A stretch of 36,873 nucleotides of DNA, from contig JAFZFP010000014.1 in the NCBI GenBank assembly GCA_017555905.1, positions 1 through 36,873 on the forward strand, written 5' to 3'. Both the position numbers and the translations under genes were made by a program. Source of the stretch: Alistipes sp. (GTDB lineage Bacteria; Bacteroidota; Bacteroidia; Bacteroidales; Rikenellaceae). Positions 5,700 to 33,192 of the stretch are shown one piece after another. The notes under the pieces were generated by a model. It searched no databases, was not told where the DNA came from, and was given only the letters and a program-made list of their open reading frames with translations. Position 1 is the first letter of the stretch. Each line of letters opens with the position of its first letter.

Positions 5700-5712
5700 C
5701 TGATTGAGCGTT

Positions 5713-6528: not shown

Positions 6529-6533
6529 AAAAG

Positions 6534-6566
6534 AATGGCGTGCCCTAATCTTTAGGACACGCCATT
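6534..6566. terminator. Bidirectional terminator between SDR and lipoprotein genes
   Basis: The 15-nt arms AATGGCGTGCCCTAA and TTAGGACACGCCATT have one imperfect position, which becomes a G-U pair on the minus strand. The loop is TCT. T-rich tracts follow on both strands. It serves two converging genes. Confidence 0.85.
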
Positions 6567-6584
6567 ACTATTTTTGTCCAACTC

Positions 6585-16994: not shown

Positions 16995-17006
16995 CAAACA
17001 GTCTAA

Positions 17007-17051
17007 AAAAGAGGAGTATCGCAGGTCTAATACCCACGATACTCCTCTTTT
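17007..17051. terminator. Bidirectional terminator between waaA and the accessory locus
   Basis: AAAAGAGGAGTATCG (17007-17021) and CGATACTCCTCTTTT (17037-17051) are a perfect 15-bp stem with a 15-nt loop and A/T tracts on both sides. It ends two converging transcription units. Confidence 0.9.
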
Positions 17052-17070: not shown

Positions 17071-17538
17071 CTACAAAAGTGGAGCAACGTCTGTAGCACG
17101 TGTTGCACCTGCCTCGTCGATAACCTCCTGAGGGATAGTGCAAATCTCGTAAACGCTGGTGATGCTAACGTCCTCCTGGCTATAGAGTTTAAGAATGCCA
17201 TCAACAACCTCAAAACGGTAGCCACAAGCCCAACTATCACCATTAGCGTATGTACCTGAAACGATATCACCATTAGTAGTGTAAGTACCGTTGAAGTGGT
17301 CGTAAGTGAGGTTCCACACCTGCTGGTAGATATCGAACGAGCCATCGGCCTTGAACTGCAAATATACATTAAACTCAGGAGCCTGCTCATCCCAAGAGGT
17401 GAGACACCATTGATTTACGATTGACGAAGGGTTGTTATTGTTATTGTTTCCAGTACCCTGACCCTCCTTATTCTTATTGCAACCAACCAATGCCAAAAGC
17501 ATAAGCGCAACAAGTGAGCATATCTTCAAACTTTTCAT
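17071..17538 (-). CDS. Small barrel-like lipoprotein of cassette 1
   Basis: The 155-residue protein has a lipoprotein signal peptide ending LVGC (C20), an Asn-rich spacer, and a beta-rich domain (about 40-140). The domain holds NQWCL, FNVYLQF, FDIYQQ, GTYTTNGDIVSGTYANGDSW and VYEICTIPQEV. This alternating strand pattern resembles lipocalin-like or META-type barrels, but I cannot name the family. It is a paralogue of the lipoproteins starting at 20232 and 22975. It begins 31 nt after the S8 protease gene. The tail GATRATDVAPLL resembles the tails of its paralogues. Possible roles are inhibitor, chaperone or substrate carrier for the adjacent protease; this is inference from pairing only. Confidence 0.8.
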   Translation of the reverse strand: MKSLKICSLVALMLLALVGCNKNKEGQGTGNNNNNNPSSIVNQWCLTSWDEQAPEFNVYLQFKADGSFDIYQQVWNLTYDHFNGTYTTNGDIVSGTYANGDSWACGYRFEVVDGILKLYSQEDVSITSVYEICTIPQEVIDEAGATRATDVAPLL

Positions 17539-17569
17539 ATTGAAATCCTTTTTAGAATATTATACACTA

Positions 17570-19567
17570 CTACAACCAGCCACCAGGGATGATAGGCTCG
17601 TTTGTACCCTCATCGACCTTAACGCCATAGCGAACAACAAGGGCAACCTCGTGCTGTGCCTCGAGACCACCAGTAATCTGACCACCACCAACAGTGGTAC
17701 CACCAGCGATATACTTCAATGTTACGAGAGCCGAACCAGGCTTAGTACAAGTAATTATGAGTTTACCTCCCATAAGTTTTACATCGGTAATGCCAAGCTT
17801 ATCCATTACCTCCTGGCTAATAACAGGATTAAGCATCTTGATACTCAACTGACCATCGCCAATATACTTACCCAAATCAATCGCTACAGACTCACCTACA
17901 GGGAGTGCGATACAAGTAGTACCACGCACAGCCATAAGCGCACGATAAGCATCAATAAGACCTGTACCCATCTTATTGTTATAACTTGCGAGGTTGAGTG
18001 TACCACCCTCAGCGTACTTCTCCTTGAAGCGGAGGTCGCCAACGAAGGTGCTAAGGCTATTAACAGAAGAGAGAATAATATCCTTCAACTCTGGCAATGT
18101 CAATTTAATGCCATTATCCAAAGCGTAAGAGATAGCCAACGCTGCAATACCAGATACGTGAGGACAAGCCATTGAAGTACCCTGGTAGAGACCATAGCGG
18201 TCGCCTGGGAGAGTAGAGAGTACACAACCCTGCTCAGCATAACCAGCAGCATACTCACCACCAGGAGCGGCTACGTTACAACCTCTATCGTAGCAAGTGT
18301 AGTATGTAGGCAAACCATCAGGTCCAATAGCGGTTACTGCGATAAGTTTATTGTATGCAGCAGGATAGCCCGCTACGCTCTTACCGTCGTTACCAGCAGC
18401 AAAGATGATAATACCACCATCCAAAGCCTCGCAGTTCTTCTTCTCCATAAAGTAGTTGAAGGCTGTAACCTCCACCTTGGTAGTTCCGCTATCGAAGGCA
18501 GCATCGTTAGCGATCTGGCCAGCACCGAAACCCCAAGAGTTCTGCAACACTGAAGCACCACGGTCTGCAGCATACTCAACAGCAGCAGCGGTAGCACTTG
18601 GACCCGCAGCTTCACCGTTAGAGATAATCTGGCAAGAGATAAGGCGTACACCATCACCATTACCCGAACCACCAGCAACACCACAACAGCCGATGCCGTT
18701 GTTGTTCACTGCAGCAACTGTACCTGCCACGTGTGTACCGTGACCAGAGTCCTTAGCCTTAGACCAAGTGACACGACCATTATCAACGAAGTTGTAACCG
18801 TAGATATCATCTACATAGCCATTGCCATCGTCATCAACACCATCAGCACCATTCAACTCAGCCTTGTTTGCACACATATTAGCCTTCAAATCAGCGTGAG
18901 TGTAGCATACACCCTCATCAACTACAGCAACGATAACATCTGGACGACCAGTAGTATGCTCCCAAGCGTTGAAGAGGTTGATATCTGCACCAGCCTTAGC
19001 ATTAGGGAAGTTTACTGTACCATCGTTATTGTAGTGCCACTGCTGACCAAGCATAGGGTCGTTGAAAGGCAACTCCTCAGAACGTGTGGTCTGGAAAGCA
19101 TCCAACGATACCTCAGGAATACGCTCAGCAGGCACCTTAACACGTGTAGCGAACTGTACAGCCTCCACCTCGTTCAACTTAGAGAGTGACTGTGCAACAG
19201 CCTCGAGGTTTGCATCCTCAGAGAAAGTAATGGTGTACCAGCGGTGCATATCGAGTTCACGCTTCTGCTCCGCATTAACAAGCATATTAAATACAGGCTT
19301 GATAGAGGTTGCTCCACACTCCGAAGCCAACGCATCCAAAGCAGTAACACCTGAACGAGTAGCATCAGTAGCACCCTCAAGTTGTGACGCTGTAGCCTCA
19401 TCAACGAAGATAATCAACTCACCCTGCTTAGCATCCTCAGAGGTGTTCACAATCTTCTTTAGTGCAACAGCCTCAGCAGAACCCTGTGACTGATCAACGG
19501 TATCGCTGACACACGATGCCACGAACAATCCCGCCAAAGCAAAAAGAAAAACTTTTGTCTTATTCAT
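17570..19567 (-). CDS. Subtilisin-family (S8) lipoprotein serine protease, cassette 1
   Basis: The 665-residue protein has a lipoprotein signal (FVASC, C19) and an I9-like prodomain (about 50-145) containing VFNML and MHRWYTITF. The catalytic domain has D217 (VAVVDEGVCYTHADL), H276 (SGHGTHVAGTV), oxyanion N393 (FAAGND) and S465 (GTSMACPHVSG), so the triad is complete. The C-terminal beta domain (about 545-665) ends GGWL. The motif DGVDDDGNGYVDD suggests a calcium site. The protein probably sits on the outer membrane and cuts external proteins. Sequence TRSEELPFNDP marks the pro/catalytic junction. A -7 box and an upstream terminator suggest it is its own transcription unit with the lipoprotein that follows. 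Confidence 0.93.
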   Translation of the reverse strand: MNKTKVFLFALAGLFVASCVSDTVDQSQGSAEAVALKKIVNTSEDAKQGELIIFVDEATASQLEGATDATRSGVTALDALASECGATSIKPVFNMLVNAEQKRELDMHRWYTITFSEDANLEAVAQSLSKLNEVEAVQFATRVKVPAERIPEVSLDAFQTTRSEELPFNDPMLGQQWHYNNDGTVNFPNAKAGADINLFNAWEHTTGRPDVIVAVVDEGVCYTHADLKANMCANKAELNGADGVDDDGNGYVDDIYGYNFVDNGRVTWSKAKDSGHGTHVAGTVAAVNNNGIGCCGVAGGSGNGDGVRLISCQIISNGEAAGPSATAAAVEYAADRGASVLQNSWGFGAGQIANDAAFDSGTTKVEVTAFNYFMEKKNCEALDGGIIIFAAGNDGKSVAGYPAAYNKLIAVTAIGPDGLPTYYTCYDRGCNVAAPGGEYAAGYAEQGCVLSTLPGDRYGLYQGTSMACPHVSGIAALAISYALDNGIKLTLPELKDIILSSVNSLSTFVGDLRFKEKYAEGGTLNLASYNNKMGTGLIDAYRALMAVRGTTCIALPVGESVAIDLGKYIGDGQLSIKMLNPVISQEVMDKLGITDVKLMGGKLIITCTKPGSALVTLKYIAGGTTVGGGQITGGLEAQHEVALVVRYGVKVDEGTNEPIIPGGWL

Positions 19568-19626
19568 AGTTGTTAATAGTTAAATGTTTCCTAATCATCT
19601 AAGTTTGGCCACACAAAGCCAATATG

Positions 19627-19634
19627 CAAAGATA
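19627..19634 (-). promoter_or_regulatory. -7 box for protease cassette 1
   Basis: The reverse strand reads TATCTTTG 59 nt upstream of the protease ATG and just after the terminator of cassette 2. A TTG at -33 is not present, so the strength or factor dependence is uncertain. Confidence 0.5.
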
Positions 19635-19676
19635 CAATTTTTTTTTGGAATTTGTGACTTTAGTTATTTTTTTCAC

Positions 19677-19729
19677 AAAAAAAAGAGTACCCCTCGAAGG
19701 TGTAATAGCACTCTTCGAGGGGCAACTCT
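19677..19729 (-). terminator. Terminator of protease cassette 2
   Basis: On the minus strand, arms built of CCCCTCGAAG and CTTCGAGGGG (10 bp perfect; 19690-19699, 19713-19722) extend through AGAGT/ACTCT and end in an 8-nt T run. It is a textbook intrinsic terminator, 36 nt after the lipoprotein stop. Confidence 0.9.
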
Positions 19730-19764
19730 ATACATATCGGTCTATGAGCCTGTCACAAAGCGAC

Positions 19765-20232
19765 CTACAAGAATGGAACAAACTCCATTGAGCGGGTTGT
19801 GAGAGCCTCGGTGATTACCTCCATAGGTATCTCGCAAGCCTCGTAGACGCAAGTGATAGGATTTGACTCCTTGCTTACAAGGGTGAGGGTGTTACCATCC
19901 TCAGAAACGCTACCCTGGTAGTCGCACTTCCACGCAGAGCCATCGACATAAACACCCGAAAGGGTATCACCCTTGATGGTGTAATCACCCTCGTAATAGA
20001 GGTAATCAAGGGTATAAATCTGCTGGTACATATTGAAAATACCCGACTCCAAGTAGAGGTAAACGGTGAACTCTGGCTCTACGCCATTTACCGAAACCAA
20101 CTTCCACTCGTTATCTACATTTGTGAGGGTTGGTACATCAACACCACCACCATTATTATTATTTGGCTTCTCGCAAGCAACCATCGCTATAAGCAGAACT
20201 ACTGCTATAGACCATACCTTAAAAATCTTCAT
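19765..20232 (-). CDS. Small barrel-like lipoprotein of cassette 2
   Basis: The 155-residue protein has a lipoprotein signal ending MVAC (C20), an Asn/Gly-rich spacer and the same beta domain as its two paralogues: NEWKLVSV, FTVYLYL, FNMYQQ, GDYTIKGDTLSGVYVDGSAW, SEDGNTLTL and VYEACEIPMEV. The tail reads TTRSMEFVPFL. It follows its protease gene by 33 nt and precedes a strong terminator. Family and function are not recognised; the constant pairing with an S8 protease is the main clue. Confidence 0.8.
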   Translation of the reverse strand: MKIFKVWSIAVVLLIAMVACEKPNNNNGGGVDVPTLTNVDNEWKLVSVNGVEPEFTVYLYLESGIFNMYQQIYTLDYLYYEGDYTIKGDTLSGVYVDGSAWKCDYQGSVSEDGNTLTLVSKESNPITCVYEACEIPMEVITEALTTRSMEFVPFL

Positions 20233-20265
20233 ACTCTACAATCTATTTCTGTGTTCTACATATAA

Positions 20266-22311
20266 TTACAACCAAGCGCCATTATCGTTCTTCTGGCGAG
20301 AGATAAGCACCAACTCCTTCTCGATGAGTTTACCACCAGGAGTGTTTGAAGTACCTACCTTGTCGCCACCAGCGATGAACTTAACAGTCACAACACCGAT
20401 ACCTGGCTTAGTACAAGTGAGGATAAACAAGTTGCTAAAGACTGTATCGCCCTCGATACCGAGACTCTCGCGTACCTCGTCGCTGATGACATACTCCTTA
20501 GTAAGTGTAAGCGAAAGGTTACGATCACCAAAAAGGGTATTAACATCGATCTCGATCTCCTCGCCCACAACCACAGGAACACAAGTAGCACCACGAAGGT
20601 TCATAATAGCAAGTGTAGCATCGAGTTTACCAGTACCCATAGCGTTGTCATAGGCATTGAGATTAAAGGTAAAGCTCTGACCATAGTTGTTGAACGCAGT
20701 CTTTGAGCGATCCTTCAAACTACCGAAACCACGTACAGAGGTTGTGAGAATCTCGTTGAGTTCAGCAGTAGTGAGGTGGATACCATTCTCTACAGCATAA
20801 GACAACAACAACGCTGCAACACCCGACACGTGAGGGCAAGCCATTGAGGTACCCTGCATATAGCCGTAGTCCGAGCCATAGATATCCTCGCCATAGGTAT
20901 ATGGGTCACGGGTCTCAGCAGGGATAGTTGAAAGAACTGTGCTGGCATCAACATAGTTGCGCATCTGGTACTCGTACTCACCACCAGGGCCCGCTACGTT
21001 ACAACCCTTTCCATAGTTGGTATATGTTGTAGGAAGACCATCTGGAGCGTATGATGTTACAGAGATAAACTCAGTATAACCGCCAGGATAGTTCGACGCT
21101 GGGTGAGCCTCGTTACCAGCAGCAAAGATTACGATACCTCCATCCATAGCCGAGCAGTTGCTCTGGCTGATGAAGTAGTCGAGAGCCTCGTGCAACAATG
21201 GCTGATCGCGCTTGAATGAACCGTCAGTGATATTTGTTACGGTGTAGCCCCAAGAGTTCTGCAACACTGAAGCACCCATATCGGCAGCGTACTCAACACC
21301 ACGAGCAGTCTTTCGGTCACCAGAAGCATCAGGACCATCGAAAATCTGGATGCTCATAATGCGAACACCGTCACCCTTACCAGAACCACCAGCAACACCC
21401 GATACACCCAAAGCGTTGTTATTTACAGCAGCGATAGTACCTGCTACGTGTGTACCGTGACCTGTATCGCCAGCATAGTAGCCCTCTCTCCAAGCAACAA
21501 CATCCCAAGTAACATCACCATTCTCGTCCCAAGTGTTTACACCGTGGATATCATCAACCCAGCCGTTCTGGTCGTCATCAACACCTGGCTGACCACTCTT
21601 CTCGGCCTCGTTCACCCACATATTTGCCTCCAAATCTGGGTGGTTATACTTGACACCCTCATCTACAACGGCTACTACAACCTCGCGGTTACCTGCTGTG
21701 TACTGCCAAGCACCGAATGCACCGATATCCTCGCCCTCCTTAGCAGTCTGAGAGATGCTCTTGCTACCACGGTTATCGTAGTGCCACTGCAAAGTAAGCA
21801 TAGGGTCGTTATATGGCATCTCGTCGGCACGTGTGATAGGCATAACCTCCTTAACAGGACGTGCAGCAGCCTGAGGACGCTTAGGTGTAGTGCTAAACTG
21901 AATCTTGCTAACCGATGGGAGTTCTGCAAACTTCTGTGCTACAACATCAAGATTTGCCTCCTGATCGAACTTAACAACGAACCAGCGGTGCATACCACGA
22001 GCGCGCTTCACATCAGCGTTCATAGCCATATTGAAGACCTGCTCAACAGACTCAGCACCTACCTCCTGAGCAATAGCAGCCAAGGCGCTGTCTGACGAAC
22101 GAGTGATAGCCTTCTCTACGCTCCACTGCTCAGCAGTAGCATCATCCACATAGAGAACCAACTCGCCCTTTGCAGCATTCTCCGAGGTATTAACAATCTT
22201 TGTGGCAACAGCAACCTCACCCTGAGCAGAGCCATCCATCTTAGGATCCTCGACGCAAGCAGCAGCAAGAGTAGCCACAACAGCAAACATTAAAAATTTA
22301 ACCTTGTTCAT
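20266..22311 (-). CDS. Subtilisin-family (S8) lipoprotein serine protease, cassette 2
   Basis: The 681-residue paralogue has lipidation at C19 (LAAAC) and a prodomain with VFNMAMN and MHRWFVVKF. The complete active site is D217 (VAVVDEGVKYNHPDL), H285 (TGHGTHVAGTI), N400 (FAAGNE) and S489 (GTSMACPHVSG). GVDDDQNGWVDD is a likely calcium loop. Compared with its paralogues it has an insert before the active-site serine (about residues 464-482, with TYGEDIYGSDYGYMQ), which may reshape the substrate cleft. The C-terminal domain ends NGAWL. It has its own promoter downstream of a terminator. Confidence 0.93.
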   Translation of the reverse strand: MNKVKFLMFAVVATLAAACVEDPKMDGSAQGEVAVATKIVNTSENAAKGELVLYVDDATAEQWSVEKAITRSSDSALAAIAQEVGAESVEQVFNMAMNADVKRARGMHRWFVVKFDQEANLDVVAQKFAELPSVSKIQFSTTPKRPQAAARPVKEVMPITRADEMPYNDPMLTLQWHYDNRGSKSISQTAKEGEDIGAFGAWQYTAGNREVVVAVVDEGVKYNHPDLEANMWVNEAEKSGQPGVDDDQNGWVDDIHGVNTWDENGDVTWDVVAWREGYYAGDTGHGTHVAGTIAAVNNNALGVSGVAGGSGKGDGVRIMSIQIFDGPDASGDRKTARGVEYAADMGASVLQNSWGYTVTNITDGSFKRDQPLLHEALDYFISQSNCSAMDGGIVIFAAGNEAHPASNYPGGYTEFISVTSYAPDGLPTTYTNYGKGCNVAGPGGEYEYQMRNYVDASTVLSTIPAETRDPYTYGEDIYGSDYGYMQGTSMACPHVSGVAALLLSYAVENGIHLTTAELNEILTTSVRGFGSLKDRSKTAFNNYGQSFTFNLNAYDNAMGTGKLDATLAIMNLRGATCVPVVVGEEIEIDVNTLFGDRNLSLTLTKEYVISDEVRESLGIEGDTVFSNLFILTCTKPGIGVVTVKFIAGGDKVGTSNTPGGKLIEKELVLISRQKNDNGAWL

Positions 22312-22363
22312 ATTTTTTTTGTTATTTAGTAGTTTTCGCCTATAACAACATTACTTCAAGGTG

Positions 22364-22393
22364 CGAAGATAGTAAAAAAATCTGTATCAACAA
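22364..22393 (-). promoter_or_regulatory. Promoter of protease cassette 2
   Basis: On the reverse strand TTG (22391-22393), 19 nt, then TATCTTCG (22364-22371) differs from the consensus at one position. The leader to the protease ATG would be about 47 nt. Confidence 0.55.
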
Positions 22394-22442
22394 TACCATT
22401 TTATCTATTCTCTGCATAGATATTCACACAAATAGATAACGC

Positions 22443-22474
22443 AAAAAACCGCCCGACTATTGCTAGTCGGACGG
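22443..22474 (-). terminator. Terminator of protease cassette 3
   Basis: On the minus strand CCGTCCGACTA (22464-22474) pairs with TAGTCGGGCGG (22449-22459), with one G-U pair and a GCAA tetraloop. A T6 tract follows. It lies about 40 nt past the lipoprotein stop. Confidence 0.9.
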
Positions 22475-22513
22475 TCCTTCTATTCGGGTTTAATACCCTA
22501 CTTGCGCTTTTGA

Positions 22514-22975
22514 CTACAAGAAGTAACCTGTTGCGCGTACGCTTGCTGGCTCTACAGCGTTAGCCTTCACGCTCTCAGGAATAGCAACCTGCTCGTATAC
22601 GCTCATAGTGCCATCAGTGGTGTGAAGGCGGAGAACCTTACCATCTGCTGATACCTCTGCGCGATACTCGTAGTTCCACGCTGTGCCATCTGCATAAGTA
22701 CCTGTAAGATCATTGCCTGAGAGTACGTAGTCGCCATTGCTGTAAACATACTCATAGGTGAAGTTACGCTCATACATCTCGAAAGTAGCGTCCTCGTTGA
22801 AATCAACGTAAACGTCGAACTTCGCAGGCTGACCAGCAAACTCTACGAGGTGCCACTCATTGACAATCTTATTGACATCACCTGGCACGAAAGTTACAGG
22901 AGCTGGCTCTGGCTTACAGCCTACCATGGCTACGAGCAACATAACTGCAAGTGAAAATATCTTTAGATTCTTCAT
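22514..22975 (-). CDS. Small barrel-like lipoprotein of cassette 3
   Basis: The 153-residue protein has a lipoprotein signal ending MVGC (C20), a Pro/Glu spacer and the shared beta domain: NEWHLVEF, FDVYVDF, FEMYERNF, GDYVLSGNDLTGTYADGTAW, SADGKVLRLH and VYEQVAIPESV. The tail reads SVRATGYFL, again with an Arg-Ala step near the C-terminus. It follows its protease gene by 43 nt and is closed by a terminator. The function is unknown. Confidence 0.8.
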   Translation of the reverse strand: MKNLKIFSLAVMLLVAMVGCKPEPAPVTFVPGDVNKIVNEWHLVEFAGQPAKFDVYVDFNEDATFEMYERNFTYEYVYSNGDYVLSGNDLTGTYADGTAWNYEYRAEVSADGKVLRLHTTDGTMSVYEQVAIPESVKANAVEPASVRATGYFL

Positions 22976-23018
22976 AATTCGTTTACTTTTTAGTAATTAT
23001 TACTCTACGATGAAACTA

Positions 23019-25097
23019 TTACAACCAGCCGTTAGTGCCGTCGATAGTACCATCCTCACTCAATGTGTAGCCCTCGCGTACGATGATAGCGATCTCCTTC
23101 TCCAAGCGCATACCGCCCATAGAGTTACCGCCACCGATCTGCTCACCACCACCTACAAGAACAACCTTGATAACACCAGTACCAGTGTTTGTACAAGTGA
23201 AGATAAGATCGTTACCGAAGATAGTCTCGTTCTTAAGACCAAGACGCTCACGAACGTCCTGAGGAACGATGATCTCCTCCATAATCTTGAGTGATGTCTG
23301 ACCATCAGCGATAAGTGACTTGATATCAACTACAGTCTCCTCACCAGCAACAGCAGGTACGCAAGAGATACCACGCATTGCCATAAGAACACGGTAAGTA
23401 TCGATGATACCAGTACCCATCTTGCCTCTATACTGAGCCAAATCCATCTTACCAGCAGTTGAATACTTAACAGCACCGTCGTAGAGATACTTGTCGATAT
23501 CAGTTACAGAGGTCAAAAGCATCTCCTTGAACTGGTTTACAGTGTAGCACTTGCCCATATCCTGTGCATAAGAGAGAGCCAATGCTGCAACACCTGATAC
23601 GTGTGGAGTTGCCATAGAGGTACCCTGCATATAGCCATACTTGTTGTCAGGAAGAGTTGAAAGAACGCAACCTGTACGCATAGCGTGACCGAACTGATTA
23701 ACGAAATACTCACCACCAGGAGCAGCAATGTTACAACCAGGACCAAAGTTAGTATAGTATGCTGGAAGACCATCTGGAGCAACTGAAGTTACAGAGATGT
23801 ACTCGTTGTATGCACCTGGATAACCTGCCATAGGAGTAGACTCGTTACCTGCAGCGAAGACGATGATACCACCATCCAATGCTGGGTGGTTCTTCTTCTT
23901 CATAAAGTAGTTGAACGCAGCGTAACGAACTGACTGAGCGGCCTTATAAGTGTTATCGTTAGTGATAACGCCTGGATCCTGACCCCAAGAGTTCTGAGCG
24001 ATAACTGCACCACGGTCAGCAGCGTACTCCATAGCACGTGCAGCAGCAGAGTTATCAGAAGATGTGTTGTCACCACCCAAAATCTGGCAAGAGATCATAC
24101 GAACACCATCACCAGCACCTGAACCACCAGCAACACCTGCGATACCAATGCCGTTGTTGCTTGTTGCAGCAACAGTACCTGCTACGTGTGTACCGTGACC
24201 GATACCGTAAGAGATAGGCTTAACATCCTCAGCCTTCACGTTTGCTGGGTTGTCGATGAAGTTGTAACCGTAAACGTCATCTACGTAACCGTTGTTGTCA
24301 TCATCAACACCTGGCTGGCCATTCAACTCAGCCTCGTTAGCGAGCATATTATCCTTCAAATCCTCGTGGTTAAAATCAACACCCTGGTCGATAATTGCTA
24401 CGATAACCTCAGCGTTACCCTTTGTGTACTCCCAAGCAGGAACTACGTTGATATCTGCACCAGCCTTGATGGTTGGGAAGATGAAACCTGGGTCGGTGTA
24501 CTCAGAGTAGTCATAACCATACTCCTCATTAGCAGGAGCGTTAGCGTTACCGTTGTTGAGCAATGCCCACTGCATATTGAACTGAGGATCGTTTGGATAA
24601 CCCTCGGCACGTGTAGAACCCATATTTACTACCTCTACAACCTCTGGCTCATCAACTACTGGATTAACGAGAAGTGTAGGGAACTCGATGCGCTGAACTG
24701 CTGAAGTAGCCGCCAAAGCCTTAGCAGCCTCATCAACATTTACATCCTCAGGGAACTCAATAGCGAACCAACGATCCATACCGAGTTCACGCTTAAGTTC
24801 AGCATTAACCTTCATATTAAATACCTGGTGGAAGCCAGTTGCACCAATCTGCTTTGCTACAGCGTCGATAGCCTCTACGCCAGTAGCAGTTACAGATGTT
24901 GCAGACTCAAGCTGTGCTACATTAGCCTCATCTACATAGAAGAGGAGTTTGCCTGAGACAGCATCTGAAGAGGTATTCACGAATTTCTTGGCTACAGCAA
25001 CCTCTGGAGTTGCTGCGGGCTGATCCACAGAGTCGTTTACACACGACACTGCAAGCAATCCTGCCAAGCTAATCAATAAAATCTTACCCTTATTCAT
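23019..25097 (-). CDS. Subtilisin-family (S8) lipoprotein serine protease, cassette 3
   Basis: The 692-residue paralogue has lipidation at C19 (AVSC) and a prodomain with VFNMKVN and MDRWFAIEF. The active site comprises D237 (VAIIDQGVDFNHEDL), H301 (IGHGTHVAGTV), N418 (FAAGNE) and S494 (GTSMATPHVSG). It carries an extra Tyr-rich segment between prodomain and catalytic domain (about 190-207, EEYGYDYSEYTDPGF). The C-terminal beta domain ends TNGWL. It lies nearest to the SusC/SusD genes and has no promoter box of its own that I can see, so it is probably transcribed with them through the hairpin at 25134-25196. Confidence 0.93.
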   Translation of the reverse strand: MNKGKILLISLAGLLAVSCVNDSVDQPAATPEVAVAKKFVNTSSDAVSGKLLFYVDEANVAQLESATSVTATGVEAIDAVAKQIGATGFHQVFNMKVNAELKRELGMDRWFAIEFPEDVNVDEAAKALAATSAVQRIEFPTLLVNPVVDEPEVVEVVNMGSTRAEGYPNDPQFNMQWALLNNGNANAPANEEYGYDYSEYTDPGFIFPTIKAGADINVVPAWEYTKGNAEVIVAIIDQGVDFNHEDLKDNMLANEAELNGQPGVDDDNNGYVDDVYGYNFIDNPANVKAEDVKPISYGIGHGTHVAGTVAATSNNGIGIAGVAGGSGAGDGVRMISCQILGGDNTSSDNSAAARAMEYAADRGAVIAQNSWGQDPGVITNDNTYKAAQSVRYAAFNYFMKKKNHPALDGGIIVFAAGNESTPMAGYPGAYNEYISVTSVAPDGLPAYYTNFGPGCNIAAPGGEYFVNQFGHAMRTGCVLSTLPDNKYGYMQGTSMATPHVSGVAALALSYAQDMGKCYTVNQFKEMLLTSVTDIDKYLYDGAVKYSTAGKMDLAQYRGKMGTGIIDTYRVLMAMRGISCVPAVAGEETVVDIKSLIADGQTSLKIMEEIIVPQDVRERLGLKNETIFGNDLIFTCTNTGTGVIKVVLVGGGEQIGGGNSMGGMRLEKEIAIIVREGYTLSEDGTIDGTNGWL

Positions 25098-25197: not shown

Positions 25198-27675
25198 TTA
25201 CTGAATGTTAAGACTTGCAGGAATCAACTCGATGTTTGAGTTCATCTTAAGAGTCTTGTTTGTACGAGTACCGACACAAACAGCCTTTGATGGAGTTACC
25301 TCATCCTCAGTCTCCTCCTCAGTGTTCTCACCACTATCTGGAGTCTCCTCCACTACTGGCATCTTAGACTCAGTAAGAGTGATAACAGTAGTCTCAGGCT
25401 TGAACTCCTTGAGAGTTGTCTCAGTTACAACATCCTTAGTTGTACCATCACCATTATCAACCTTGTCGTAGAACTTCTTATACTTCTTGAAGTAAGTGAT
25501 AAGTTCGTTGATCTGGCCATCCTCACCGTAGTAAACTACGAATGACTCGTTCTCGTACTCATAGTCAGAAGTTGAAGAACTCTTGTAGCCCCAGTAAGTG
25601 TTGCTCTCATTGTTGTACTTGTCGAGGTCTACACCGAACAATACACCGTAGTTAGAGAAGCCATCAGCCAAACCGTAGCAGCAGATTGCATTCCACTTAG
25701 GCATATGGTAGCCGTAGAATGTGAAGTACTGTGGCTCTGCCTCCTCATCGTCAGAAGAGATAGCATCGTCAAGCATAGTAAGAAGGTAAACAAAACCTGA
25801 ACCGTAGTCTGCAATCATATTTGCAGAGAAGATAGAATCAACACCAATGTTCATAGTGCTGTCGCCATCCTTGAACTCATAATTACCGATAACTACCTGA
25901 CCTGGGTAAGCAGTAGTAGACTTCTCAAGCTCGTAGTACTTAGTCTTACCATAGATGCTGGTCATAGAGAAGAGCATTGTGTAAGATGTTGAAGGAGTAA
26001 GGCTCTGCAACAACATAGTACCCTCGCCAGCAGCGATATCTGCAAACCAACTATTACCATTCTCACCATTCTCAGCAAGGATAGACTCAACAGTAGCACC
26101 CTTAGCCTTAGCTGCCTCGATCTCAGAAGTAGGAGCGAAGTAGTAAGCGATGTTAGATACATAATCCAAGAGGTCTGATCTCTCTGGAATAGACATATCG
26201 AAACCAAGGTAGTATGCGCTTGGATACTTGGTAATATCAGCACCAAACTTATCAAGAGAGTCGAAAGTCAAGATCATATCCGCAATCTCAGGTACTTCAT
26301 CATCAGCATTTGCTGAACGCAAATAGAAGTAGGTACGTACGATCTCTGACATTACTGGCTCACCTGCCTTGTCGTAAGGAACAGCGAACACAGTGTAAAC
26401 GCCAGCCTTAGGAAGAGTAATCCACCAGTTAGTCTGAGTAGGAGTAGCGGTTGCCATATTATCCTCAGGAGTTGGCTCATACTCGTCGTTGATAAGGTTC
26501 TGGATAGACTCGTGGTAAACAGTCTGGAACTCCAAACCTACTTTCTGCTGAGTAGAGATAGGCTCGTTACCCTCAACTACTGCGAAGCGGAATGCTGAAA
26601 CGTCAGCACCAACTACGAAACTAAGGTTAGCAGATGTCTCAGAGTTATCTGGAGATACCTGTGCGCCATCGTAGTAAATAGCAACAGAGTGGTCTACAAG
26701 GCTAATACCTGGAAGTGTTACGCGCATCAAACCATTCTGGTTTGAAAGGTAACCTGAACCAGAAGCGTCAAGGATACCTACAGTCAGTGGAGCGAAAGAA
26801 ACGATACCATCCTTCAAAACTGCGTTGTCCTTACCGATGCTCTTACCAGAAGCAATGCAAACTGGCTCCATAAAGCCGATGATGCTGAAACCAGCCTCCT
26901 GGTATGGGAAGTAAACAGCCTCAGGATCACGTGCATCAAGCTCAACATAAGATGGAGCTGGAGCAAATGAGATATCAGAAGGAACACCACCAAGCATCTC
27001 AACAATATTCTCCTTTGAGAAGAGGTTTACCAAACGGTAGTAGCCCTTACGTGACTCAGACTCATCAACCTGTACTGATACGATTGCACCACCGCTACCG
27101 CCATACAAGAATGTGAAGAAATCCTCAGTGAAAGTACCCAACTTGAGGTTGTTATCCTTTACATCATCACCAAGGTTCTTCCAAGTCTCAGGAATACCAA
27201 TACCAATAGTCTTACGGTAGAGACCGTAGTTACCGTGGTGCTTAGTCTCCTTGATCATAATCTCAGCGTTGAACAAGTTACCTGGCTTCAAAGACAACTC
27301 CTCGTGGAGAATAATCTCAAGGTAAGCAACAGTCTCACCCTCAGCGAAGGTTACGCTCTCAGCGATAGTAAACACTGACTCATCTGGACCAATAAGATCG
27401 CCAGCGTCGATGTTGTCAATCATACGTGAACGGATAGCAACAGTCAACTCTGCGCCACCATTCTGACGGTAAACAGGGAAGTAAGCTACGTGAGCCTCGT
27501 CAATCTCTGTCTCATCATTATCTACTGCAGCAAATGATGCATACTCAACCTCAACTGGGAAGTATACGCTCATCTCCGAGTCAGGCTGACCAGGCTCCCA
27601 ATCCTGCTGGCAAGCAGTAAAGGCGCCGGCAACGAGTGTTGCTACAAGCAGAAATAAAAACTTTATATTTTTCAT
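25198..27675 (-). CDS. Large surface lipoprotein of the SusC/SusD locus
   Basis: The 825-residue protein has a lipoprotein signal ending FTAC (C22). The N-terminal region (about 30-150), with MSVYFPVEVEYASF and VTFAEGETVAYLEIILHEEL, resembles a Calx-beta-like or Ig-like domain. The middle contains several beta-sandwich-like segments with repeated Thr/Val/Tyr patterns. The C-terminus is acidic (EETPDSGENTEEETEDE) before a short hydrophobic ending. It is 38 nt downstream of susD, the place usually held by SusE/SusF-like surface-binding lipoproteins, so a ligand-binding role is inferred. I do not recognise a known family over the whole length. Confidence 0.75.
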   Translation of the reverse strand: MKNIKFLFLLVATLVAGAFTACQQDWEPGQPDSEMSVYFPVEVEYASFAAVDNDETEIDEAHVAYFPVYRQNGGAELTVAIRSRMIDNIDAGDLIGPDESVFTIAESVTFAEGETVAYLEIILHEELSLKPGNLFNAEIMIKETKHHGNYGLYRKTIGIGIPETWKNLGDDVKDNNLKLGTFTEDFFTFLYGGSGGAIVSVQVDESESRKGYYRLVNLFSKENIVEMLGGVPSDISFAPAPSYVELDARDPEAVYFPYQEAGFSIIGFMEPVCIASGKSIGKDNAVLKDGIVSFAPLTVGILDASGSGYLSNQNGLMRVTLPGISLVDHSVAIYYDGAQVSPDNSETSANLSFVVGADVSAFRFAVVEGNEPISTQQKVGLEFQTVYHESIQNLINDEYEPTPEDNMATATPTQTNWWITLPKAGVYTVFAVPYDKAGEPVMSEIVRTYFYLRSANADDEVPEIADMILTFDSLDKFGADITKYPSAYYLGFDMSIPERSDLLDYVSNIAYYFAPTSEIEAAKAKGATVESILAENGENGNSWFADIAAGEGTMLLQSLTPSTSYTMLFSMTSIYGKTKYYELEKSTTAYPGQVVIGNYEFKDGDSTMNIGVDSIFSANMIADYGSGFVYLLTMLDDAISSDDEEAEPQYFTFYGYHMPKWNAICCYGLADGFSNYGVLFGVDLDKYNNESNTYWGYKSSSTSDYEYENESFVVYYGEDGQINELITYFKKYKKFYDKVDNGDGTTKDVVTETTLKEFKPETTVITLTESKMPVVEETPDSGENTEEETEDEVTPSKAVCVGTRTNKTLKMNSNIELIPASLNIQ

Positions 27676-27713: not shown

Positions 27714-29417
27714 TTAGATTGCATCCTCAGATACAAGACCACGTGATGGGTCTGGACCTGCGGTCTCCTTACAAGCTGTATTTACTGCAGTCTCACCTGA
27801 AGGGATAGGAAGGTTCCACCAAGGAAGACGACCCTCAGACTTGAACAACATACCTGAAGGATAGTTCTGACCAGTGGTATCAACACCCATATTCAAACGC
27901 TTCATATCGAAGAGAACCTTACCCTCGCCCCAGAACTCTACAGACTTCTGGAAGATAATCTCGTCTACTACGTCCTCAGTAGGAAGGATAACGTAGTTAG
28001 AAGCACGGTTTGCCATAAAGGTATTGAGAAGTGTACGTGCTGTACCCTCATCGTAGTGTGCGATAGCCTCCATCTCGATGAAGTACATCTCCTCAATACG
28101 CATAATTGGCAATGAGACAGCATTTGCAACCATATAGTCTACACGCTCACCCTGTGCAGGACGGAACTTGAAGTTAGTGTAAGGAGCGCGGTATGCCAAC
28201 TCCTCCCACTCATCCTGTGGCATAGTAGTATAGTTCTTGAAGTCAGCATAAGTGGTGTTAGGACCAATGATCAGCTTCTTACGGAAGTCGCTATTGCTCA
28301 AACGATCGTATGTCTTAGAAGCAACACCTACGCAAGCCAATGGACCGTAACCGTATGATGCCTCAGGACAAACGTGTGCTGGGAATGCATACAAGTTGTT
28401 GATAACGGTATCGGTAGACATCTGAGTAGCCCAAATCCAAGCAGGAACAACTGAGTTGAAACCTGTAGTGGTGTTAGTCCACTCCATCTCAGACATAATA
28501 GATACATTAGCAGTGTCGATAGCCTTACGAGCGTACTCAGCAGCAAGACGGTAAGCCTCCTCACCAGTCGCTACGTTCTCGTAGTTGAGGTTGTTGAAAC
28601 CACCAAGCCACAAGTATGCACGAGCGTACAAACCATAAACAGCAGCCAACTCAGGATAAGTAACTGAGCTACCATAAACAGTAGGCTTAAGTTTTGAATC
28701 CTCAGCCTCATATGCCAAGAAGCACTCCTCTGCATCCTTCAAGTCAGCGAAGATGAACTCAAACATCTCCTCGCGCTTAGCACGCTGGTTCAACTTAGCA
28801 GTCGCCTCAGTAGTGTTCTCAGTTACGATAGGCACGATGTAATCCTTAACCTTAAGCAAGTCAGCCTCGTAAGTAGGAAGCATTGGAGCCTTAGCCTCAA
28901 GGCTATCGTAGTAACCTACCAAGTCGATGTAGAACAACGCACGGAAAGCCTTAGCAATACCACGGTACTCCATCAAAGACTCATCAGTACCTACAGCACC
29001 GATAATATCGTTAGCCTTCTTGATGTATGGATAGTAGTTATACCATATATAATGTGTATAGCCACCGTTTGTACCCATATCAAAACCGTAGTTAGGAGCC
29101 TGAAGACGTGAGTAGTATACATTACCACCACGATCTACACGTGTACAAGGGAACATTGTCAAAGCGTGATGATCCTTGTAAAGACCAATTGAGTGGTAAC
29201 CAAAATCAGAGTGGTCGTAGCTTGCAGCAACAGTTGCTGCCATAGCAGAAGGAACTGACTTCAATAGAGACTCCAAACCAGCATCACTCTGTGAGAGCTG
29301 AGACTCGGTGATAGCACTCTCCTTAGGGAAGACCTCCTTGATACAACCAGTGAACGATACAGCAGCGATAAGAACAACCGCTGTAGTCTTGAGTATCTTA
29401 TTTAGTTTCATAGTCAT
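27714..29417 (-). CDS. SusD/RagB-family outer-membrane nutrient-binding lipoprotein
   Basis: The 567-residue lipoprotein (FTGC, C25) is the extracellular lid of a SusC/SusD importer. SusD-type features include the N-terminal TPR-like helices (YIWYNYYPYIKKANDII), YRGIAKAFRALFYIDLVGYY, ADLKDAEECFLAYE, YARAYLWLGGF and the C-terminal IMRIEEMYFIEMEAIAHYDE. The protein ends with DPSRGLVSEDAI. It lies 14 nt after susC. A second in-frame ATG two codons in (29411) could be the start. In this context, next to proteases, peptides are as likely a ligand as glycans (RagB precedent). Confidence 0.93.
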   Translation of the reverse strand: MTMKLNKILKTTAVVLIAAVSFTGCIKEVFPKESAITESQLSQSDAGLESLLKSVPSAMAATVAASYDHSDFGYHSIGLYKDHHALTMFPCTRVDRGGNVYYSRLQAPNYGFDMGTNGGYTHYIWYNYYPYIKKANDIIGAVGTDESLMEYRGIAKAFRALFYIDLVGYYDSLEAKAPMLPTYEADLLKVKDYIVPIVTENTTEATAKLNQRAKREEMFEFIFADLKDAEECFLAYEAEDSKLKPTVYGSSVTYPELAAVYGLYARAYLWLGGFNNLNYENVATGEEAYRLAAEYARKAIDTANVSIMSEMEWTNTTTGFNSVVPAWIWATQMSTDTVINNLYAFPAHVCPEASYGYGPLACVGVASKTYDRLSNSDFRKKLIIGPNTTYADFKNYTTMPQDEWEELAYRAPYTNFKFRPAQGERVDYMVANAVSLPIMRIEEMYFIEMEAIAHYDEGTARTLLNTFMANRASNYVILPTEDVVDEIIFQKSVEFWGEGKVLFDMKRLNMGVDTTGQNYPSGMLFKSEGRLPWWNLPIPSGETAVNTACKETAGPDPSRGLVSEDAI

Positions 29418-29431
29418 TATACAATTTTAAA

Positions 29432-32400
29432 TTAGAAGGTCAAAGTTACACCACCCGAAATTGTACGGATTGGCGAGTAGTTTACGTTGGTTGTACCACC
29501 GCTAAAGCTCTGACGAGGATCCAAACCACGACGCTTAGACCAGTAGAATACGTTATCGCAAGCTACGTAAACACGCAAGCTGTTGATCTTACCGTTCCAC
29601 CACTTAGCAGGGAAAGTATAACCCATATTGATGTTAGAGATATTGAGGTATGACGCGTCAGTCAAGAAACGATCAGATGTTGCTGAAGAGTACTGGTCGT
29701 CGTACTGGAAACGTGGAATCTGTGAATCCTCGTTTACACCCTTAGTCCAAGCCTTCAACAAGTCGATGTGATAGTTCTGACCTACAGAAGTACCGCTAGG
29801 AGATGCCATATAACCTGCATAACCTGAGTCATATACCAAACCACCAATCTGATAGTCAAATGCGATAGAGAAGTCGAAACCTGCAACGCTCAATGATGTG
29901 TTGAAACCACCATAGAGGTCTGGAGTTGCGCAACCCATAAGCTTACGAGATGTTGTCTGAGAAGCGTAGCTATAAGTTGTGCTTACACCCTCCTCATATA
30001 CTGGGTTACCAGCCTCGTCTACCATAGGATTACCCTCGTTATCAGCCATCTGGAGTTTGTAGTACCACTGTGACTCACCATTCTCGTTTACACCACGGTA
30101 CTCAGGAAGCAACCAAGTATACATTGGAAGACCCTCAGCAATGAACTGTGAGCCATTAATAAAACCATGATAGCCATCAACCTCGAAGTCCTTACGGATA
30201 GGAGGCAATTTGAGAACCTTGTTGCGTACGTGTGTCATATTAAGACCAAGTGACCAAACAACATTGCGTGTACGGATAATATCACCGCTCAACTCGATCT
30301 CGATACCACGGTTAACCATATCACCGATGTTGTCATAGTATGAAGAGTAACCCAATGATGGAGGAACTGGTACTGAGAACAACATATCAGATGTCAAACG
30401 GTTGAAGAAATCGATGCTACCGCTCAAGCGATCCTGCCACAAGCCAAACTCAACACCGACGTTAAGGTTAGTGTTGGTCTCCCAAGTGATGTTAGGATTA
30501 CCCTTCTGAGAGAAAGCAACTGAGATACCACCAGCACCGTCGTTGCTTACAGAATAAATATCGGTATAACGGTAAGAACCGATACCATCGTTACCCTGTG
30601 AACCGATAGATGCCTTAAGTTTCAACATGCTGAATACTGGAGCGTTGAACCACTGCTCACGATTGATAATCCAAGCAGCACCAACTGACCAGAAGTTACC
30701 CCAACGGTGATCAGGGTGGAAGTTAGTAGAGGCATCGCGACGGAATGAACCAGATGCGAAGATACGCTCGTCGTAGTTGTACTGAGCACGGAAGAAGTAA
30801 CCCTCGTTAATGTACTCTGTACGGTAAGAAGATACAGCACTCATATCTACTACAGCACCAGCCAACTCGTTGTTGTCTGTAGAGAAGATGTTAGACTTAG
30901 CACCACCTACATAGTAGTAACGAGTAGTATAAGTCTCGTGACCGAGCAACAAGTCGAGGCTGTGCTCGTCGTCGTTACCGAATGTAGTGTTGTAGTTCAA
31001 CAACTGCTGCAAGTTGTGAGAGTAAGAACGGCTGTGACCCTTAGTTACGATACCGCCGTTAGTTACGAACTGACCGTAGTATGGGTTAGATACTGATGTA
31101 GAACGAGTCTCATCGATATTTACTGCACCGTTGATAGTAAGTTTCAAACCTGGCATAAAGATAAAGTCAGCGAAACCGTTTACACCGAATGCGTTACCCT
31201 CTGAGTTAGCCTCATCCAACCAGATCAACTGCAATGGGTTAGCCTGTGTACCGCTAGCACGCATCATACCGTTGTCACGACCGTCACCGGTATCGTACAA
31301 AGGCCAGCCATACTTGTCGGTCATCACGTTACCCTCACCATCGCGCACGTATACAGGATAGATAGGTGCCATATCTGCTACTGCAGAGAATACGTCGGCA
31401 GTAGAACCATCACCCTCGTTTGAAGAAGATGCACCATTCCAGTAGAAATGAGTGTAGTTCATGTTAGCACCAACTTTCAACCACTTCTTTGCCTGGTAGT
31501 CACCACGAAGACGTGCTGTCCAACGCTCCATATCTGAACCATCGGTAATACCGTTGTTGTTCAAATAACCGAGTGATGCAAAGAATGTAGACTTCTCAGA
31601 AGCACCAGAGATGTTTACGTTGTACTCCTGACGGAATGATGGATCGTACAACTCGTCCATCCAGTCGTCTGGAGTGAGGTAATACTCCTGACCCTTATAC
31701 TCATACTTGCGACCAAGTGTAGCATTTGGGTTTAACTTACCGTTAGTACCGATAAGCTGCTGACCTGCAGGAACATTGAATACATTGTAACCCAAACCAC
31801 CGATGTTGTTTGATGTCAAAGTAGAGACAGCCTTGCTATAAGATGTAGCAGCGTCGTTACCCTGATCACGGAAGTAGTTGTACAATGAAGTGTAGTGCAT
31901 CTCATAGTACTGACCTGGATCCTTCACATACTCGTAAGTCTGACGAGCGCGGGTATTAACACCCCACTTAGCGTCGAACGAAATGTGAGCATCACCAGCC
32001 TTTGCACGCTTGGTAGTCACCATGATAACACCGTTTGCACCACGAGCACCGTAAAGTGCGTTAGATGCAGCATCCTTCAAGACGGTCATAGACTCGATAT
32101 CCGCCATGTTGATATTGTTCATATCACCCTCGTAAGGTACGCCATCGATGACCCAAAGTGGAGCCTGATTAGCGTTGATAGAACCAAAACCACGGATACG
32201 GATCGATGGCTCAGAGCCAAGCGAACCTGAACTTGAAGATGTCTGAAGACCTGCTACCTTACCAACAAGAGCGCTGGCAGCTGATGAAGACTGTGTCTTC
32301 ACGAGGTCGTCTGACTTAATAACCTTCGCTGAACCAGTGAAGGCCTCCTTCTTAGCAGTACCGAAAGCCTGTACGATGACCTCCTCAATCTGCTCTGAAT

Positions 32401-32698
32401 CGGCAGCGAGAACTACATCGACCTGCGAACGGCCTGCAACAGCAACGGTCTGAGTCTGCAAACCAAGGTAAGAGAATACCAAGTTAGCATCAGACGAAGC
32501 TGCAATCTCATAAAAACCGGCTACATCGGTAGTAGTACCGCGAGATGTTCCCTCGACTACAACCGCCGCTCCGATAACTGGCATACCAGTCTCATCGGTC
32601 ACTGTACCGGTAATACGCTGACCTTGTGCAAATGCGCCGAAGCAGCCCAAGACCAGAGTTGCAACCATTGATAGTACAACTTTTCTAACCATAAGCAT
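29432..32698 (-). CDS. SusC/RagA-family TonB-linked outer-membrane receptor
   Basis: The 1088-residue protein forms the gated outer-membrane barrel partnered by SusD. After a signal peptide ending FAQ (residue 25) come a carboxypeptidase-regulatory-like domain (27-100, with ITGTVTDETGMPVIGAAVVV) and the TonB box/SusC signature EEVIVQAFGTAKKEAFTGS (105-123). The plug domain follows (LWVIDGVPYEGD, LYGARGANGVIMVTTKR) and then a 22-stranded barrel ending in GGVTLTF with the terminal Phe. M1 and M3 are both possible starts. It leads the accessory locus under a consensus promoter. No sigma/anti-sigma pair is adjacent within the window. Confidence 0.96.
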   Translation of the reverse strand: MLMVRKVVLSMVATLVLGCFGAFAQGQRITGTVTDETGMPVIGAAVVVEGTSRGTTTDVAGFYEIAASSDANLVFSYLGLQTQTVAVAGRSQVDVVLAADSEQIEEVIVQAFGTAKKEAFTGSAKVIKSDDLVKTQSSSAASALVGKVAGLQTSSSSGSLGSEPSIRIRGFGSINANQAPLWVIDGVPYEGDMNNINMADIESMTVLKDAASNALYGARGANGVIMVTTKRAKAGDAHISFDAKWGVNTRARQTYEYVKDPGQYYEMHYTSLYNYFRDQGNDAATSYSKAVSTLTSNNIGGLGYNVFNVPAGQQLIGTNGKLNPNATLGRKYEYKGQEYYLTPDDWMDELYDPSFRQEYNVNISGASEKSTFFASLGYLNNNGITDGSDMERWTARLRGDYQAKKWLKVGANMNYTHFYWNGASSSNEGDGSTADVFSAVADMAPIYPVYVRDGEGNVMTDKYGWPLYDTGDGRDNGMMRASGTQANPLQLIWLDEANSEGNAFGVNGFADFIFMPGLKLTINGAVNIDETRSTSVSNPYYGQFVTNGGIVTKGHSRSYSHNLQQLLNYNTTFGNDDEHSLDLLLGHETYTTRYYYVGGAKSNIFSTDNNELAGAVVDMSAVSSYRTEYINEGYFFRAQYNYDERIFASGSFRRDASTNFHPDHRWGNFWSVGAAWIINREQWFNAPVFSMLKLKASIGSQGNDGIGSYRYTDIYSVSNDGAGGISVAFSQKGNPNITWETNTNLNVGVEFGLWQDRLSGSIDFFNRLTSDMLFSVPVPPSLGYSSYYDNIGDMVNRGIEIELSGDIIRTRNVVWSLGLNMTHVRNKVLKLPPIRKDFEVDGYHGFINGSQFIAEGLPMYTWLLPEYRGVNENGESQWYYKLQMADNEGNPMVDEAGNPVYEEGVSTTYSYASQTTSRKLMGCATPDLYGGFNTSLSVAGFDFSIAFDYQIGGLVYDSGYAGYMASPSGTSVGQNYHIDLLKAWTKGVNEDSQIPRFQYDDQYSSATSDRFLTDASYLNISNINMGYTFPAKWWNGKINSLRVYVACDNVFYWSKRRGLDPRQSFSGGTTNVNYSPIRTISGGVTLTF

Positions 32699-32834: not shown

Positions 32835-32865
32835 CAAAGATAACCCAATTAATTGAAATAGCAAA
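32835..32865 (-). promoter_or_regulatory. Promoter of the susC operon
   Basis: On the reverse strand TTTG (32862-32865), exactly 19 nt, then TATCTTTG (32835-32842) is a perfect match to the Bacteroidota consensus. The transcript would start near 32830. Confidence 0.85.
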
Positions 32866-33088: not shown

Positions 33089-33117
33089 TTGGATTTAAAT
33101 ATTTTTTACTATATTTG
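33089..33117 (+). promoter_or_regulatory. Promoter of the orphan TonB-dependent receptor gene
   Basis: TTG (33089-33091), 18 nt, then TATATTTG (33110-33117). Transcription near 33123 would leave a leader of about 70 nt before the ATG at 33193 and excludes any start codon upstream of it. Confidence 0.75.
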
Positions 33118-33192
33118 CAATCGATTTTGCACCGCGTGAGTGCAATACTATTATCAACCTGGCACATAAATAGTGTCCCTAAATCTCAACCT

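Follow-up and report, generated by a model that had tools for sequence, protein, structure and literature searches.

Tandem S8 protease lipoproteins and lipocalin-like lipoproteins in Alistipes: candidate cognate pairs

Closest described systems

Proteases that are encoded side by side with a small dedicated protein have been described before, and we use them here as the point of comparison for a locus of Alistipes sp. (contig JAFZFP010000014.1 of assembly GCA_017555905.1). Within the window (the whole stretch of 36,873 nt that was analysed), three cassettes lie at positions 17071-25097 on the minus strand, 3' of SusC-SusD genes, each consisting of an S8 lipoprotein protease followed by a small lipoprotein. 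The best-supported reading of these cassettes is that the small lipoprotein is the cognate binding partner of its protease. Potempins of the PotE and PotB types are eight-stranded up-and-down barrels, and potempin structures were reportedly published in 2023.

Excerpts of the source papers describe three related systems. A small putative lipoprotein gene precedes each of the KLIKK proteases of Tannerella forsythia, one of which, mirolase, is subtilisin-like (PMC4404884), and a later paper names these proteins potempins and, referring to data then awaiting publication, describes each as specific for the protease with which it is co-expressed (PMC7296668). In Bacteroides (Btp/Bti and Bfp/Bfi), C10 proteases share their transcripts with small exported proteins that resemble staphostatins, some of which are predicted to be lipoproteins (PMC3462683). 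For dentilisin of Treponema, the small lipoprotein PrcB binds the S8 lipoprotein PrtP and is needed for it: non-polar loss of PrcB, or deletion of the PrtP C-terminus, leaves no detectable PrtP (PMC8167434). An earlier reading of the window made from the letters alone (the sequence-only reading) knew of no described system of this kind, a statement that these close precedents overturn. An S8/lipocalin-like pair as such is not described among the titles listed in searches of open-licence papers, which is weak evidence of absence.

The cassettes resemble the KLIKK/potempin system in that a small lipoprotein is encoded beside each secreted protease, in the subtilisin-like nature of mirolase, and in the predicted fold of the partner, which is the eight-stranded barrel of potempin E. 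They differ in gene order and in the end of the protease: the potempin gene lies upstream of its protease, whereas here the partner is downstream (118 of 121 cases, see below), and KLIKK proteases are exported through the type IX system and have KLIKK as their last residues, whereas the S8 lipoproteins end in GWL or GAWL. Because of these two differences we reject the cassettes as members of the KLIKK/potempin system, although they may act in a potempin-like way. Sequence matches to potempins were found with the signal peptide included (E 0.006, 0.036 and 0.0077) and are not listed at E <= 5 once it is removed.

The Bacteroides C10 systems, compared by description only, share with the cassettes a protease and a small beta-rich, partly lipidated partner that are co-transcribed and partly alternate in clusters, but they are built on cysteine proteases with partners of 116-138 aa, and inhibition is predicted. 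Given the different protease class, and again by description only, we keep the staphostatin-type explanation as an analogy. Dentilisin, which is like the cassettes in pairing an S8 lipoprotein with a small lipoprotein, there a binding partner that the protease requires, differs in that PrcB is reported in the excerpt to lack homologues beyond the oral treponemes, comes first in the gene order and works with a third subunit, PrcA. The window S8s are not PrtP itself, since they score 44.6-69.6 bits against its equivalog model, far under the cut-off of 300.

A protease clade and its adjacent lipocalin-like partner

All three window S8s match PF00082 at 142-162 bits (cut-off 21.8) and carry the pro-domain PF16361 (Peptidase_S8_N). 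With both models over their curated cut-offs and Asp, His and Ser intact, they belong to peptidase family S8 with the Bacteroidota pro-domain. The open reading frames (ORFs) bear out the coordinates, lengths and gaps first given for three two-gene units on one strand. The complete triad claimed for them holds as well: Asp, His and Ser, together with the Asn that lines the oxyanion hole, are kept in 118/118 aligned paired S8s, the window's three included as copies. The S8 lipobox is placed 5' of the pro-domain. At the other end, in a feature that the sequence-only reading missed, the paired S8s finish in [GA]-W-[LMF], with W in 118/118 and a last residue that is L in 111, M in 5 and F in 2, while only 1 of 2207 non-S8 ORFs ends this way; we call S8s with this end GWL S8s. 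The gaps from S8 to partner are 43, 33 and 31 nt in cassettes 3, 2 and 1, and the cassettes are spaced by about 200 nt. With the first S8 of the window as reference, identity is 50 and 52% for the two others; for the small proteins it is 42 and 36%.

The genome of the window (G000, the window being contig C9; assembly of 1.77 Mb, 86.85% complete) has five S8 genes, each with an adjacent member of the small family: the three cassettes, a site on contig C13 with a DUF1573 gene between, and a site on contig C14 where the barrel domain forms the C-terminal part of a longer protein (509 aa) that also has weak matches of Ig/FN3-like type. The sequence-only reading had named a small family found mostly away from S8 genes as a refutation, and the opposite is seen across 61 related genomes, where an S8 pro-domain lies within 3 kb of 51 of the 56 small-family matches (E <= 1e-5), 50 of them on the same strand; the remaining five have no S8 pro-domain on their contig. 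Among 180 genomes of the same genus both families occur in 153, the S8 alone in 6, the small family alone in 2 and neither in 19 (Fisher 1.6e-18). The association between the two families exceeds chance.

The neighbourhood search that had been proposed gave the same picture from the protease side: for GWL S8s located through the protease alone, the small gene is downstream in 90/92 (77/79 and 13/13 in two locus sets). For loci picked through the small gene it is downstream in 28/29, and the remaining one has its partner upstream. Counting all GWL S8s of at least 590 aa that are complete and distinct over their last 300 residues (shorter, incomplete and duplicate rows being left out), the partner is downstream in 118 of 121, upstream only in 1 and absent in 2, and every one of the 118 S8s with a downstream partner ends in [GA]W[LMF]. 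This search went by likeness to the window S8s, which favours the GWL type. The two GWL S8s that lack a partner after a check of the ORF lists are those of loci L172 and L184, the latter with most of its downstream sequence masked. The gap between S8 and partner in the 118 pairs is at most 60 nt in 101, 60-600 nt in 8 and above 600 nt in 9. Named hosts are Alistipes and Rikenellaceae metagenome-assembled genomes (many from ruminant gut), Candidatus Cryptobacteroides, Tidjanibacter and Carboxylicivirga; Alistipes montrealensis (L138), a gut relative that can be cultured, also has the pair.

Homologous S8s with other tails lack the partner. At the protease-found loci none of six has it downstream; one of the six itself follows the partner that belongs to an adjacent GWL S8. 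An order-wide search gave a match in 31/247 genomes, from 20 of which one region each was taken; there, all three GW[LM] S8s, from three other families, have the partner, while 0/20 complete other-tail S8s have one on the same strand within 1.6 kb (two more ran off the stretch). As a separate observation, a tandem array of five S8 homologues, none with a partner and with FVKR among their ends, occupies the region 3709-16000 of L215 (genome G383, of the same family, SprA not found). In L171 an S8 is split over two successive ORFs (5001-6985), the second ending in GGWL, and a small-family gene follows the first ORF after 398 nt; this S8 was excluded from the counts.

The two kinds of S8 also differ in length of match to a common profile of 663 positions, which ends at 493-562 (one at 620) in 28 other-tail S8s and at 603-663 (one at 555) in 67 GWL S8s. 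Since the match reaches further in the latter, the GWL clade has an extra C-terminal domain of its own. In a quick tree of 95 catalytic regions the GWL S8s fall on one side of one branch (Shimodaira-Hasegawa-like approximate likelihood ratio support 97), so the association of GWL S8s with the partner goes back to one origin followed by long joint retention rather than to many independent gains. The GWL row closest to the dividing branch, L184, is one of those without partner.

The type IX protein SprA was looked for in 8 genomes of the genus, among them that of the window (G000, G011, G023, G064, G070, G075, G142 and G177), and was found in none, with a model that has no match in 14 control genomes and does match other genomes of the same scans, so type IX secretion of these S8s in the window's genus is unlikely. 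A division in which GWL tails go without type IX secretion and other tails with it failed on both sides: two genomes that have GWL S8s, G354 and one of Carboxylicivirga, do contain SprA, and six other-tail genomes gave no match to it (G206, G207, G286, G293, G306 and G383). The tails also look unlikely as a general surface signal, given the rarity of this end outside the S8s and the different ends of the window's SusD and 825-aa lipoprotein.

The small proteins belong to the lipocalin-like families, though at varied strength. Those of the window have weak to moderate matches to Lipocalin_4 or DUF5640, and for Lipocalin_4 (PF13648) partner 3 is over the cut-off (1/3), partner 1 below it and partner 2 without a listed match; at E <= 0.01 the model matches 61/68 mature family members, and model match and predicted lipocalin-type barrel together place the family in Lipocalin_4. 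The motifs first quoted for these proteins are real, and the most conserved positions include W43, G82, G93, Y95, W101, Y105 and P136 (partner 2 numbering), but VYE...IP..V is not the ending it was taken for: a helix and a tail, mostly F-L, lie beyond it. The barrel-like nature then proposed is supported by prediction. For partner 2 the prediction gives, with high confidence, a barrel of eight strands, on which the F-L tail is ordered (predicted local distance difference test, pLDDT, of 93 in the tail, as a single chain).

The best solved fold matches of this model include the protease inhibitor potempin E of Tannerella, tied with uncharacterised Bacteroides proteins, and the lipocalin-like proteins PDB 4qrl, 4gzv and 5byp, whose entry titles name no partner protease and whose aligned range, like that of Lipocalin_4, stops short of the helix and the F-L tail at the partner's C-terminus. 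Foldseek alone gave no match at E <= 0.001. PrcB and staphostatins are not among the listed fold matches, which excludes neither, and a PHROGs search gave nothing useful.

Several loci show other forms of the small family. A partner of about 490-510 aa, with a C-terminal barrel domain and an F-L end, stands behind a GWL S8 at L043 9808-11334 and at L062 5695-7197 and 9342-10808; in L043 an M49-family peptidase gene adjoins it on the opposite strand. The C13 locus of the window genome (L044 5936-10889) runs from a leucine-rich repeat/BACON lipoprotein through a GWL S8 and the DUF1573 protein to a small-family member without F-L tail. Some of the weak small-family matches in G017, G018, G020, G024, G027 and G033 span at least one in-frame stop.

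A comparison of how the two families diverge had also been proposed from the sequence. Over 98 of the 118 pairs (longer partners left out) the S8 and partner distance matrices correlate with r 0.894, against a maximum of 0.18 in 500 permutations. Restricted to the 41 cassettes of 20 loci that hold two or three each, the correlation is 0.769 and falls to a mean of 0.158 when partners are swapped within the locus (0/3000 as high). In 39/41 cassettes the closest S8 elsewhere carries the small protein that best fits the cognate one. S8 and partner move and diversify as cognate pairs, although co-divergence alone is no proof of contact. Of the top 15 inter-protein covarying pairs, 10 fall in the S8 C-terminal domain, but this is no covariation signal: when partners are swapped between near relatives (68 draws), the number averages 7.4 and reaches 11. 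A single-chain read-through model of S8 2 and partner 2 has a mean pLDDT of 80.7 and a predicted template modelling score of 0.70; the S8 tail (675-696) is at pLDDT <50 in it and so gives no support for docking, in a model with a non-native C-terminus and an alignment of only 31 rows.

Neighbouring genes and transcription signals

The minus strand of the window reads SusC/RagA, SusD, an 825-aa lipoprotein and then cassettes 3, 2 and 1 (Table 1), cassette 3 following directly behind the SusC/SusD genes. The consensus of the Bacteroidota -7 element is TAnnTTTG. The boxes 5' of S8 2 and S8 1 have the form TATCTT[TC]G, similar in relatives, which fits this consensus. Because each has its own promoter-like box and terminator-like hairpin, cassettes 2 and 1 look like separate transcription units of protease plus partner. 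A generic terminator scan of the window listed none of the three hairpins, and its totals were not above those of shuffles.

Table 1. Features of the cassette locus, in minus-strand order
Feature	Position	Strand	Evidence and remarks
Promoter-like TTTG-N-TAnnTTTG, 5' of SusC	32835..32865	-	4 window matches vs 0.9 expected; 2/100 shuffles with as many
SusC/RagA-family TonB-linked outer-membrane protein, locus start	29432..32698	-	TIGR04056 776.5 bits (cut-off 368.25)
SusD-family protein	27714..29417	-	PF14322 34.2 bits (cut-off 27); PF07980 25.4 bits (cut-off 23.1)
825-aa lipoprotein between SusD and cassette 3, in SusE/F place	25198..27675	-	no family match over cut-off
S8 lipoprotein protease, cassette 3, 692 aa	23019..25097	-	PF16361 and PF00082; end DGTNGWL
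Lipocalin-like partner lipoprotein, cassette 3, 153 aa	22514..22975	-	Lipocalin_4 25.7 bits (cut-off 22.4); end GYFL
Intrinsic-terminator-like hairpin and T run, 3' of partner 3	22443..22475	-	z -5.6; 0/200 shuffles as stable
Promoter-like -7 box TATCTTCG, 5' of cassette 2 S8	22364..22371	-	one off TAnnTTTG; resembles box in relatives
S8 lipoprotein protease, cassette 2, 681 aa	20266..22311	-	end NDNGAWL
Lipocalin-like partner lipoprotein, cassette 2, 155 aa	19765..20232	-	end EFVPFL; structure predicted
Intrinsic-terminator-like hairpin and T run, 3' of partner 2	19677..19729	-	z -7.1; 0/200 shuffles as stable
Promoter-like -7 box TATCTTTG, 5' of cassette 1 S8	19627..19634	-	resembles box in relatives
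S8 lipoprotein protease, cassette 1, 665 aa	17570..19567	-	end IIPGGWL
Lipocalin-like partner lipoprotein, cassette 1, 155 aa	17071..17538	-	end DVAPLL
Intrinsic-terminator-like hairpin and T run, 3' of partner 1	17005..17051	-	z -6.8; 0/200 shuffles as stable

On the plus strand (33115-36297), divergent from the SusC gene and adjoining it, the window encodes a 1060-aa outer-membrane barrel protein (PF25183) with carboxypeptidase-regulatory-like domains. Two further genes come after the cassettes in L045 (13039-15365), one for a cysteine peptidase of family C10 that carries an inhibitor domain of the Spi type (PF01640, PF13734) and one for a BACON lipoprotein. ORFs that are alike in size and ends stand at this place in L047, L049, L050 and L051, and the window has neither of these genes.

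What the partner may do

Near-strict co-occurrence, cognate co-divergence and signals of shared transcription units give good support to the proposal that the two proteins of a cassette work together. Within this reading of a cognate binding partner we favour inhibition: the partners in the closest precedents of known or proposed function within the phylum have been described as inhibitors, and the predicted fold is shared with one of them. That each cassette pairs an S8 protease with its own dedicated, potempin-like barrel inhibitor is held tentatively, at somewhat less than an even chance. The S8 would be exported as a lipoprotein with an N-terminal pro-domain, and the downstream gene, on the same transcript, would supply a lipid-anchored lipocalin-type barrel. 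This barrel would bind its own S8 one to one and may block or damp it until it is placed at the cell surface, a restraint that would protect the envelope. Once active, the S8 would cut dietary or host protein, and the peptides could pass to the neighbouring SusC/SusD importer. By analogy the mode would be that of the potempins, a membrane-anchored barrel acting against an adjacently encoded protease.

It is possible, if less probable, that the barrel is instead a subunit for assembly, stabilisation or anchoring, as PrcB is for dentilisin PrtP. The lipid of the S8 sits on the pro-domain, with the lipobox preceding it, and would be lost at activation, such that a lipidated partner would keep the mature S8 attached to the outer membrane by recognising its C-terminal domain and G-W-L tail. 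The invariant tail W, rare as an end elsewhere, fits this, as does the restriction of the partner to the S8 clade with the extra C-terminal domain (GWL 90/92 vs other tails 0/6; order-wide 3/3 vs 0/20). In Treponema, besides the loss of PrtP without PrcB or its own C-terminus, acylated PrtP-N is absent from the purified complex, according to the same excerpt (PMC8167434). However, the GWL S8s being one side of one branch, the restriction amounts to one origin and retention, and both L184, closest to that branch, and L172 are GWL S8s without a partner. The S8 tail is moreover unordered in the fusion model, and no PrcB-named family appears among the Pfam matches of the small proteins.

We think it unlikely that the barrel binds products or substrates and hands S8-released peptides to SusC/SusD. 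The lipocalin-type fold does have ligand-binding relatives, and the cassettes lie behind SusC, SusD and one more lipoprotein gene, as they do behind ORFs of like size and end in several relatives, but one-to-one pairing persists at the C14 locus (L043), which has no SusC-sized ORF in 14.7 kb around it, and the partners co-diverge with their own S8. The tail, ordered on the barrel model, may in addition fill a binding site. Weakest is the idea that the two genes are a co-inherited duplicating block with no direct functional link, which is very improbable: tandem duplication and linkage alone could give parallel trees, and the GWL type has a single origin, yet the pairing is kept across several families of the order despite varied gaps, a long partner form or an upstream partner, and both families co-occur genome-wide.

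A further, doubtful extension of the cognate-partner reading makes the lipocalin barrel a reader of C-terminal aromatic-leucine tails, in which the partner's own F-L would rest on the barrel while the partner is free, and the invariant G-W-L of the S8 would displace it, lock the pair, and anchor or release the enzyme. If true, this would give a lipocalin-type lipoprotein a role in C-terminal-tag recognition, and would add to type IX signals and lipid anchors another means by which Bacteroidota attach proteases to their surface.

For the cognate pairs themselves, the cassettes carry a concept known from oral pathogens, in which every secreted protease has its own lipoprotein partner, over to a set that is widespread in gut Bacteroidales. 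The pairs occur in a genus in which SprA was not found, and in the window they are tied to a SusC/SusD locus. Specificity is directly testable through the swappable paralogous pairs and through the conserved tails, which are GWL in the protease and FL in many of the partners, with the sister S8 clades that lack a partner as a built-in control.
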